A stretch of DNA of 64,000 bases from Syntrophus gentianae (GTDB lineage: Bacteria > Desulfobacterota > Syntrophia > Syntrophales > Syntrophaceae): positions 1 to 64,000 of the forward strand of contig NZ_FOBS01000002.1 in assembly GCF_900109885.1 (NCBI RefSeq). The letters run 5' to 3'. The notes under the pieces were generated by a model. It saw only the letters and a list, made by a program, of their open reading frames with translations, made no database searches and was not told the DNA's origin. Shown here one piece after another: positions 5,138 through 24,279 of the stretch. Within the stretch, counting starts at the first letter, position 1, and every line of letters starts with the position of its first letter. The position numbers and the translations under genes are program-made.

Positions 5138-6157
5138 TCACTCTTGTATGTAATACTCCCGATACCACTCCACAAATCGCCGGATTCCTTCCTCAACGGA
5201 GGTTGCCGGCTGAAAACCCACATCCCTCATCAGGTCATCCACATCGGCGTACGTGGCAGGGACATCGCCGGCCTGAAGGGGCAGGAGGTTCTTTTCTGCT
5301 TTTTTCCCCAGACAATTCTCCAATGCCTGAATAAACGTCATCAATTCCACTGGATTGTTGTTGCCGATATTGTAAATCTTATGCGGGGCATAACTGGTTC
5401 CGGGATCGGGATGAGCACCGCTCCAATCCGCATTGCCCTCAGGAAATCGATCCATCACCCGCACCACACCTTCGACGATGTCATCGATATAAGTAAAATC
5501 ACGCTGCATCTTTCCATAGTTAAAGACATCGATAGGTCGGCTTTCGAGAATCGCTTGAGTAAACAGGAAGAGGGCCATATCCGGTCGCCCCCAGGGACCG
5601 TAAACGGTAAAAAAGCGAAGGCCCGTGGCGGGAAGCCCATAGAGGCTTGAATAGGTGTGCGCCATCAGCTCATTGGCCTTCTTGGTGGCCGCATAGAGAG
5701 AAACGGGATGATCTACATTATGATGCACGGAGAAAGGCATCGCTGTGTTTGCACCATAAACGGAACTGGAGGAGGCGTAGACCAGGTGTCTAACCCCTGA
5801 GTGGCGGCACCCCTCTAGGATATTGATGAACCCGACGATATTGCTGTCTATGTAGGCATAGGGGTTAGTCAGGGAATAGCGCACCCCCGCTTGAGCGGCC
5901 AGGTTGACAACGATCTCGAAGTTTTCGTCAGCAAAGAGCTGGTGCAATTTATCCCTCTCTTCCAAGCCCTGGCGGATAAAACGGAAGTTAGAGAAGGGTG
6001 TCAGTCGGGATAGACGGGCCTCCTTCAAGCGTACATCGTAATAGTCGTTAAGGTTATCCAGGCCGATAACCTGGTTTCCTCCCATCAGCAGTCGCTGTGA
6101 CAGGTGAAAGCCGATAAAGCCTGCTGCACCAGTAACCAGTATTTTTTTCATTTGCAT
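5138..6157 (-). CDS. NAD-dependent epimerase, UDP-glucuronate 4-epimerase-like
   Basis: This 339-aa extended short-chain dehydrogenase most closely resembles bacterial UDP-glucuronate 4-epimerases, which make UDP-galacturonate. The Rossmann motif [10 protein letters not shown] is at the start. The active site shows YASSSSVYG and the Tyr-x3-Lys pair in [11 protein letters not shown], and [16 protein letters not shown] is typical of the UDP-GlcA epimerase branch. The [15 protein letters not shown] substrate-binding stretch is also typical. Start is either of two ATGs 6 nt apart (6157 or 6151) behind gaagag. It lies 22 bp before wecB and 42 bp after galE, in one probable operon. The exact substrate is inferred from family resemblance. 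Confidence 0.88.
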
Positions 6158-22284: not shown

Positions 22285-22879
22285 GTCTGTTCTCGCTTTT
22301 CTTAATACTTACCGTTTTTTATCATTTTGTTCCATCCCGGCCTATTTTGCTTATGACCTGATGAATTCGAATCTTGAAAAAAAAGTTACGTACAATACCT
22401 GACTCCATAATGCAACAGAGAAAAAACGGCCTTTGCTCTGAAAACGAGGCAGATGAAAGAGAAGCAAAGGTTTCCGTCTCAAGAGAGAATCGAGAAAACG
22501 GCAAAATTAAGAAGAAAAAATCTCAAGGAGAATTATGATGACAACGGTGATGAGGACCCTTATTTTTAGGGGGAATGGTTAGAACTTTTTATTGACATCA
22601 CCAAAGGAATATGGAATTAGTCACAATGTGACTGCTTTTTAACCAAATCATTCACCTATTCTAAAGAGAAGGGAGGGATAAGGAGGGAAATCTGTATCAT
22701 CAATACTTTAAGAAAGGAGGGACAAGAAGAAGCGCTCAGGGGTAATTTTATTGATATTATTAAAAATGAGACGAGAATCAAAATCACATTTATCGAGTTC
22801 ATTGTCGTATTTGTTCTAATTTTTGTTTGATTCCAGTGGTAAGACCACGATTTGCAGCAAAAAAAAGGGGAGGACAGAT
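22285..22879. other. Long AT-rich regulatory region between divergent genes
   Basis: These 595 bp separate purL (minus) from the polytopic membrane gene (plus). The sequence is AT-rich with several agaaaagaag-like purine runs. Besides the palindrome at 22619-22633 no element is certain; a TTGACA hexamer at 22592 has no good -10 at the right distance. Possible short frames here have no support. Confidence 0.4.
22619..22633. promoter_or_regulatory. Candidate operator palindrome
   Basis: agtcacaatgtgact is a 15-bp near-perfect palindrome (seven-base arms around a central base) about 250 bp upstream of the ten-helix membrane protein gene. Its half-sites tcaca/tgtga are those bound by CRP/FNR-family regulators but in everted arrangement, so the cognate protein is unknown. 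Confidence 0.45.
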
Positions 22880-24175
22880 ATGCAGGAAGAATTAGCTGAG
22901 AAACGCGGTATCGCGACCGTTCTTGCAAAAAAGAAAGAGGAAGAAGTGGAGTTAGTTGTCAAACGCTCTTTTAACAGTCTTATTACTACGGGAATTGTTG
23001 CATCAATTCTCACTTTGATTGTAGGCCTTCTTTACTGGCCCGTCTGGGGTTGGATATCCAAAGCAATCATTTTGTCTTTTGGCGCTCCGGGGCTTCAGAT
23101 GGCCGATCCGAAAACGGCAGGAACTTATGTCAAGGTTTTTGCAGAGGCCACCTTTTTCTGGATGTGCATCAACTCCTGGATCTGGCAGGCCCTGGTCTTC
23201 GGCGGTTACGGCAAGTATTCCGTAGCAAAGCGTCAGCCGTGGGCCGGTCTCTGGTATTTGTTTGTCGGCTTGATTGTCGGCTTGGTCGCCTTCTTCATCA
23301 TTGTGGGATTTTCCGGTATCTGGTGGCATCCCTTCAGCTTGGCCATTCTGTTCACTCCGCAGACTCCCGATGAGGTCAAACTGGCCATCGAAGGCTGGGA
23401 AGCAGGCAACTTCTATGCGCTCCCCGCCATCTTGATTAATATCGGCTATGCGGCCCTGTTTCATAAATGGCCCTTTGCCGGAAATATCAAGGCCCCCTGG
23501 GACAGTGTCGGCGCCTGGACGATGAGTTCCTACTTCTGTCTGCTGGTTTGGTTCGCGCTCATCATTCCCAGTTTCTGGTTCCATTTGGACCTCAATGGAC
23601 ATCATGTCGTGTCCAAACCCATGGGTGGCTGGCCGACCTTTGTAGCCTACTGCCAGTGTTTCATCTGGTTTTTCCTTATTCCGGCCGAGGGAGGCGAGCA
23701 TTATCCCATGAAACTGTTCGCCAAGAAACAGCCCTGGATGGGCATTATCGGTCTCATCATTACCTGGCTCGGGGCCTTTGCAATGCTGTACGCCCTGCGA
23801 GCCATCATTTATCCTATGAACCTGATGCCTGGCGCGCCGCCTGATGCTCCGGTCGCATCCATTGCCTTGTCTATCGTTGTCGCAACCCTGCTTTGGCACC
23901 ATGTCTTTGACGATTGGCCCACGGCAGCCATGGTTCCGAATCTGACCGCCCGCATTTTGATTCGGATCGCCATCTGGTGGGCGTTAGGTCTCGCCTATGG
24001 TATCCTCTGGGTCAAAATCTTCAAATCGGTCCCCTATGCAGGAACCGACATGGGTCTGGGCTATCCGGTCATGGGTCCCATTGCAGGCCAGTTCGTCTGG
24101 TTGATGGCTTTCCTGTACTACAACACCTTCTTCGACAAGTGGCCTCTGGTCAGGAAAGTGCCTGCCAACAAGTAA
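22880..24175 (+). CDS. Unrecognised ten-helix inner-membrane protein with repeated WP motifs
   Basis: This 431-aa protein begins MQEELAEKRG with a short charged helix (~30 residues) and then shows about ten membrane helices. I do not recognise the family. It looks internally repeated: three modules each end with an F-x-x-W-P turn (LFHKWPFAG, VFDDWPTAA and FFDKWPLVR), and two of them contain a QPW-x-G loop before a helix (KRQPWAG and KKQPWMG). It is rich in Trp. The start has an excellent ggggagg site 6 nt upstream; a longer in-frame start at 22823 is not supported. It has its own long upstream region and a strong terminator, so it is a single-gene transcript. Transport is a guess from topology only. 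Confidence 0.8.
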   Translation: MQEELAEKRGIATVLAKKKEEEVELVVKRSFNSLITTGIVASILTLIVGLLYWPVWGWISKAIILSFGAPGLQMADPKTAGTYVKVFAEATFFWMCINSWIWQALVFGGYGKYSVAKRQPWAGLWYLFVGLIVGLVAFFIIVGFSGIWWHPFSLAILFTPQTPDEVKLAIEGWEAGNFYALPAILINIGYAALFHKWPFAGNIKAPWDSVGAWTMSSYFCLLVWFALIIPSFWFHLDLNGHHVVSKPMGGWPTFVAYCQCFIWFFLIPAEGGEHYPMKLFAKKQPWMGIIGLIITWLGAFAMLYALRAIIYPMNLMPGAPPDAPVASIALSIVVATLLWHHVFDDWPTAAMVPNLTARILIRIAIWWALGLAYGILWVKIFKSVPYAGTDMGLGYPVMGPIAGQFVWLMAFLYYNTFFDKWPLVRKVPANK

Positions 24176-24230
24176 TCAGGATTTCTTGCTGACTGAGCAA
24201 GAGCGGTAGATTTTTTCCATTAATTTTTAA

Positions 24231-24279
24231 GGCGTCTGCTTTCAAGGGTTGAGAAACCCCAAGGGCAGGCGCCTTTTTT
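24231..24279 (+). terminator. Rho-independent terminator
   Basis: Arms ggcgtctgc and gcaggcgcc pair (one G-U), with an inner aggggtt-type hairpin, followed directly by tttttt. It lies 55 bp after the membrane protein stop. Confidence 0.85.

Follow-up and report, generated by a model that had tools for sequence, protein, structure and literature searches.

Syntrophy poses the question of how benzoate and short fatty acids enter obligate anaerobes whose life is close to the thermodynamic limit, and at what cost. Aromatic-acid:H+ symporters of the AAHS family are twelve-helix MFS proteins built in two halves, and in the mitochondrial carriers (SLC25) a two-helix unit is repeated three times in tandem, every copy having a signature with a proline at one helix end. 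The pore of TehA is lined by the odd-numbered helices, which are the inner helices in the TDT family. The SLAC1/TehA plan, as given in the cited part of its description, comprises ten helices in tandem hairpins with quasi-five-fold symmetry (PMC3172217). In some pseudomonads a gene for a CBS-domain protein adjoins actP, which encodes the acetate permease, according to an excerpt of a further report (PMC9927547). In the excerpted text of a proteogenomic study of Desulfococcus multivorans a TRAP importer is assigned to phenylacetate and phenylpyruvate, and within that text none is named for benzoate (PMC5109826).

The window, that is the whole stretch of 64,000 nucleotides of Syntrophus gentianae DNA that was analysed, contains the gene for a membrane protein that can be set beside these systems (Table 1). 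With SLC25 it shares tandem two-helix repeats carrying a proline signature, but there are five repeats rather than three, the motif is a different one and SLC25 is not matched by the window protein. An AAHS protein of the BenK/PcaK type would fill the role proposed below, import of an aromatic acid ahead of a CoA ligase, yet the AAHS profile TIGR00895 matches neither the window protein (up to E = 10) nor any of 15 aligned members of its superfamily (alignment A6, up to 0.1). With SLAC1/TehA it has in common the ten helices in five tandem hairpins and, as predicted cargo, acids or anions; it differs in that no sequence relation was found and in its FxxWP and QPxxG junctions and conserved even helices.

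The sequence-only reading had named a result that would speak against it, a confident assignment to some known family of transporters. No such assignment is seen: the window protein matches no Pfam and no NCBIfam family up to E = 10, no PHROG family and no PDB sequence. For the 15 members of alignment A6, Pfam returns Abhydrolase_9_N in two (best E 3e-4), a baculovirus match in one and nothing else, and NCBIfam returns none up to 0.1. Pfam matches are seen for 0 of 15 in subfamily B, and PDB profile searches with the superfamily give one match at E = 1 and otherwise none. Matches of single relatives to DUF6234, DUF7156 and PHROG families, with E values from 0.2 to 7, were taken as chance. Among the papers listed by a literature search, none was recognised as dealing with this superfamily. 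The superfamily would supply annotation pipelines with a family that is missing from Pfam and NCBIfam.

Table 1. Features of the gene and its surroundings (window positions; residue numbers refer to the window protein).
Feature	Coordinates	Strand	Basis
Conserved upstream block, putative promoter and possible operator: TTGACA (22592-22597) and inverted repeat AGTCACAatGTGACT (22618-22634)	22592..22634	+	Alignment of three Syntrophus loci
Ribosome-binding site GGGGAGGA	22867..22874	+	5 bases 5' of the ATG; aligned region retained in two other Syntrophus loci
Gene, 431-residue five-hairpin membrane protein, subfamily A member	22880..24175	+	ORF and translation; nine homologues (alignment A3, 49-80% identity)
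Repeat unit 1, residues 30-114, helices 31-67 and 77-110	22967..23221	+	AF2 helices; register from the B/C repeat test; weak inside A
Repeat unit 2, residues 115-202, FHKWP turn at end (23459-23473)	23222..23485	+	Score of units 2 and 4, 28.4 versus a shuffle maximum of 15.7
K-x-QPW-x-G junction of units 1/2, KRQPWAG	23228..23248	+	Motif search
Repeat unit 3, residues 203-279, EHYP at end	23486..23716	+	AF2 helices 208-233 and 251-269; register from B/C; weak inside A
Repeat unit 4, residues 280-353, invariant WHHxFDD, FDDWP turn (23906-23920)	23717..23938	+	Alignment, motif search, score of units 2 and 4
K-x-QPW-x-G junction of units 3/4, KKQPWMG	23723..23743	+	Motif search
Repeat unit 5, residues 354-427, FDKWP turn at end (24131-24145)	23939..24160	+	AF2, motif search; score of units 2 and 5, 10.3, reached by 1 of 40 shuffles
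Intrinsic terminator	24229..24279	+	-29.2 kcal/mol, z = -6.33, followed by a T run

The open reading frame is a genuine gene. The strong ribosome-binding site, long leader and terminator that had been read from the sequence are all borne out (Table 1), although the terminator is missed by a consensus scan. The leader of about 595 nt separates the gene from the divergent purL and is partly kept in two other Syntrophus loci, TTGACA and the inverted repeat included. A mismatch-free 16-mer of the inverted repeat is found upstream of this gene only, both in the window genome and in a second Syntrophus genome (G003), and the repeat just 3' of TTGACA is a candidate gene-specific operator. A regulon search in these two genomes gave about as many two-mismatch matches as a control pattern, and no regulon. 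Rfam gives two sub-threshold matches and no riboswitch, and no relatives of the protein were found in viral contigs. About 21 residues directly after the start of the window protein (22880-22960) are lacking from its relatives, which open with MDEFVVKR or similar.

Relatives of the window protein are present in seven of 60 related genomes, and two of these matches are distant and led to subfamilies B and C, subfamily A being that of the window protein itself. In the phylum of the window four of 395 genomes are matched, one of them spuriously, and in Bacillota seven of 299, two with strong A members and several others with C. Subfamily B occurs in 19 of the 395 phylum genomes, the weakest match being a C member. 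The search with C finds 23 of 297 phylum genomes (cross-matching B members counted) and seven of 299 Bacillota genomes, among which G726 has a B member and the match in G664 is left unassigned. Two acyltransferase-like proteins (by eye; L017 and L024) and two weak matches (L109 and L121) were excluded from the member counts. The superfamily is rare and patchy in its distribution. The guess that homologues would be limited to syntrophs or sulfate reducers came close: besides Syntrophus, subfamily A has members in Desulfoprunum benzoelyticum and another deltaproteobacterial genome, and other members of the phylum have relatives, and Bacillota are included as well, two of their genomes within A.

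Comparison of the subfamily profiles scores 86.1 for A-B, 84.4 for A-C and 226.4 for B-C, against shuffle maxima of 25.1, 26.4 and 32.5 and reversed-profile scores of 15-21, and the hhalign probabilities among the three lie between 97 and 99.9%. By these measures A, B and C are homologous and constitute one superfamily, in which B is the closest sister of C.

The window protein has three copies of F-x-x-W-P (residues 194, 343 and 418), a count reached by 0.04% of 20,000 residue shuffles, and two of K-x-Q-P-W-x-G (residues 117 and 282), two copies of QPWxG being found in 0 of 20,000 shuffles. The looser pattern [FYW]..[WYF]P gives no more than a marginal count (p = 0.047, residue shuffles). Three modules ending in a Trp-Pro turn, two K-x-QPW-x-G loops and an internal repeat had been proposed from these motifs. 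The loops, the three turns and the repeat stand; the modules, on the other hand, number five. For the repeat test, B and C were cut at QPxxG into five units of 64-95 residues, and the unit profiles were compared with each other and with 40 block-shuffled controls. With B and C combined, all ten unit pairs score above all 40 shuffles and are aligned nearly end to end, and the pair-score sum is 191.6, compared with 31.1 (s.d. 4.9) for the shuffles and 62-67 for reversed profiles. In subfamily A alone a single one of the ten unit pairs, units 2 and 4, exceeds all shuffles. Here the pair-score sum is 67.9 versus 28.1 (s.d. 8.8), with 40-43 for reversed profiles, when the units do not overlap; it rises to 90.6 with four-residue overlaps between neighbouring units, which makes the evidence for the repeat from A by itself modest. 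Since the five-fold repeat is found in B and C and A is homologous to both, the repeat is carried over to A by homology.

When the motifs are mapped by eye onto alignment A6, QPxxG precedes helices 1, 3, 5 and 7 and FxxWP-like turns follow helices 2, 4, 6, 8 and 10 in A, B and C. Three units of the window protein (2, 4 and 5) retain FxxWP, and two (1 and 3) are followed by QPWxG. Judged from this alignment, the F-x-x-W-P turns and K-x-QPW-x-G loops are the halves of one junction motif, and the sister subfamilies have both halves at more of the junctions. The repeat, as read from the profiles, is one of five two-helix hairpins, with QPxxG entering the odd helix and FxxWP ending the even helix. 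It is clear in two of the three subfamilies and provides a case of a membrane protein arising by repeat amplification.

Two low-confidence AlphaFold2 models, from 6 and 7 sequences (mean pLDDT 60.7 and 62.6, pTM 0.65 and 0.67), each contain ten long helices, in agreement with the ten-helix membrane protein of the sequence-only reading. Foldseek gives no match with E <= 0.001 for either model. The best VIA-align match of the first model is a KtrB chain (Z 5.7), and that of the second is the designed barrel 8qkd with five inner helices (Z 6.7, rmsd 7.9 over 255 residues), which is within the noise. Of the proposed novel transporter or channel fold, the part that holds up is a membrane protein without annotation, plausibly a transporter or channel. 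The weak models do not establish a novel fold, and five-hairpin barrels are already known in SLAC1/TehA.

Each even helix is more conserved than any odd helix in A, in B and in C (1 of 252 permutations each, with the helix borders for B and C set by hand). The even helices of A have at least one invariant polar residue each (Asn98; Asn177; Gln259; Asp322, Ser327, His340 and His341; Gln404, Asn415 and Asp419). Among the odd helices, 3, 5 and 7 have none, helix 1 has Thr37, and helix 9 has Arg358, Arg362 and Lys379. Probably the even helices encircle a pathway and are themselves surrounded by the odd helices. The 8qkd match, noise-level as it is, would be in keeping with such an inner ring. Per A sequence, about 13.6 Lys and Arg residues lie on the side of the Trp-Pro turns, compared with 2.4 on the opposite side. 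Because positive charge is gathered there, the Trp-Pro turns are predicted to be cytoplasmic, and the topology predicted from the AlphaFold2 models and this charge distribution has both ends and all five turns in the cytoplasm.

The superfamily might also be a distant branch of an established family of multi-helix transporters that escapes the profile libraries. SLAC1/TehA/Mae1 (TDT) is an example, its gross plan of ten helices in quasi-five-fold tandem hairpins being the same in the cited excerpt (PMC3172217). We consider such a distant kinship very improbable. The window protein is not matched by the Pfam SLAC1 profile PF03595, and the superfamily was not filed there; the profile is found in 0 of 2 Syntrophus genomes (G000, the window genome, and G003), compared with 6 of 14 control genomes. 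At the low confidence of the two models (pLDDT 61-63), the absence of TehA among the structural matches listed carries little weight. Conservation moreover favours the even helices, whereas it is the odd ones that line the TehA pore. The protein is probably a five-hairpin barrel that resembles SLAC1/TehA in layout, and it is plausible that it works like SLAC1/TehA.

For subfamily A the gene neighbourhoods of 13 loci were compared (the window, L002-L007, L018-L021, L112 and L133). In five of these a same-strand gene for an AMP-forming acyl-CoA ligase lies within 400 bp, at distances of 28 bp (L003), 339 bp (L004), 44 bp (L006), 50 bp (L021) and 52 bp (L133, where the open frame covers the C-terminal part of the ligase only); in L112 a ligase is 843 bp away. 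The ligases of L003 and L004, one of them in Desulfoprunum benzoelyticum, are benzoate-CoA ligases above the NCBIfam cut-off. That of L006 is absent from the NCBIfam benzoate-CoA ligase table, and a methylmalonyl-CoA-epimerase-like gene, scoring below cut-off, is present at L003 and L006 in addition. No ligase is seen in the window, L005, L018 and L019, nor in L002, L007 and L020, whose upstream sequence is short or missing. The binomial probability of the ligase adjacency is 3e-8, or 6e-9 with Syntrophus loci of the same synteny collapsed, given a base rate of about 0.75% for a random neighbour that comes from the window genome alone and loci that are not fully independent.

Twelve subfamily C loci from the phylum of the window were classified (L058 and L083-L093), with Pfam for examples and BLAST clusters for the others. 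A ligase adjoins four (L084, L085, L089 and L093), a CoA-transferase three (L058, L083 and L088) and a methylmalonyl-CoA mutase four (L085, L086, L088 and L092), two of the last overlapping with the other classes; combined, nine of the 12 Desulfobacterota loci have at least one of the three. None of the seven Bacillota loci of C has a ligase; in these, L130 has a mutase 2 kb away and L125 lies beside succinate dehydrogenase/fumarate reductase. At L089 and L093 genes for a CBS/cNMP/DUF294 protein, an acyl-CoA ligase and the C protein stand in a row. This row looks like an acetate-use cluster with the permease replaced, ActP and MctP also being permeases near an acyl-CoA synthetase and a CBS-type regulator; they differ in having the SSS fold and sequence, to which the window protein has no match.

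As acid-activating genes stand beside two subfamilies, A occurs in two phyla and the repeat is channel-like, a monocarboxylate importer is the simplest account of the superfamily. Our best explanation, in which we have middling confidence, is a five-hairpin, ten-helix permease or channel of the inner membrane, most likely importing monocarboxylates, with the transport function suggested by gene context. Five tandem two-helix hairpins would form the permease or channel, the conserved polar even helices lining the pathway and the variable odd helices lying outside. A small monocarboxylate, which for A would be benzoate or another aromatic acid, would enter the cell, and the acyl-CoA ligase inside would trap it as the CoA thioester. 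The window copy would do the same job as the ligase-adjoining copies, to which it is linked by homology only; three genes of the benzoate-CoA ligase family above cut-off lie elsewhere in its genome. An unannotated membrane protein that adjoins acid-activating enzymes is a concrete candidate for uptake; the link of the superfamily to carboxylate uptake is suggestive and unproven.

Several observations speak against an importer of this kind. The window gene and three congeners lie between purL and a malic-enzyme gene (in L002 and L007 the malic-enzyme side only is seen) with no adjoining ligase, and seven of the 13 A loci are without one. Eight histidines are invariant in C, an uncommon feature for a plain carboxylate channel. 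The window genome has an aromatic-acid MFS transporter near the cut-off (377.2 of 418.55 bits), so it may need no further importer. In favour of the importer, the best aromatic-acid:H+ symporter match in the Syntrophus genome G003 reaches no more than 74 bits.

The same neighbourhoods could belong to a membrane partner or enzyme of acyl-CoA metabolism that docks the ligase (vectorial acylation) or carries out a redox or metal-dependent step, without moving a solute by itself. In favour of such a role are the close association with genes for ligase, CoA-transferase and mutase, the WHHxFDD motif conserved in A and C, and the conservation of the Trp-Pro turns, which are predicted to face the cytoplasm. 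We nevertheless find it unlikely, as these neighbours are absent from B, the set of histidines is not kept across the superfamily and no cofactor-binding family is matched in Pfam or NCBIfam. For A the idea of a metal enzyme is put low because most of the histidines of C are not conserved there.

The neighbourhood of B is of another kind. A metallo-beta-lactamase-fold protein adjoins all 16 loci and L132 in addition (17/17; L022, L023, L044-L057 and L132), a CobW-type GTPase region is present in 15 of the 16, and two loci have a gene that by eye resembles one for a Fur-type regulator. The metallo-beta-lactamase-fold protein of L056 has, in this one case, a TAT signal by Pfam. Within 6.5 kb none of the 16 loci has a ligase, and the difference from A and C combined (8 of 22 versus 0 of 16) has a Fisher p of 0.012. 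The B neighbourhood is possibly a metal-linked exported hydrolase system. This context fits a metal or other solute better than a carboxylate, and it could be reconciled with an importer only on the speculation that B takes in the product of the hydrolase.

Accordingly varied solutes, such as metal ions in B, could be carried by a transporter or channel that is not for carboxylates, and the ligases near A and C would reflect co-regulation with acid catabolism. The invariant His, Asp and Glu residues of B and of C agree with this reading as the B neighbours do. We hold it to be improbable all the same: most of these histidines are lost in A, and neighbours for acid activation are common to A and C, which are distinct subfamilies, A moreover having such neighbours in two phyla. 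Returning to the monocarboxylate importer, a wider proposal, which is doubtful and which we put forward tentatively, would see here a new five-fold hairpin-amplified permease superfamily with no sequence relation to described transporters. In it A and C would import benzoate, propionate and other monocarboxylates in syntrophs and sulfate reducers, and B would take in what an exported hydrolase of the metallo-beta-lactamase fold releases.

At L004 a gene for a protein of 157 residues (5298-5771), with no NCBIfam match, precedes the genes for the benzoate-CoA ligase and the A protein. L112 is the second A copy of a Bacillota genome (G443) and lies near genes for an indolepyruvate-oxidoreductase-like protein (TPP, POR_N and Fer4), an enoyl-CoA hydratase-like protein and the CoA ligase; these neighbours hint at aryl acetates as cargo.
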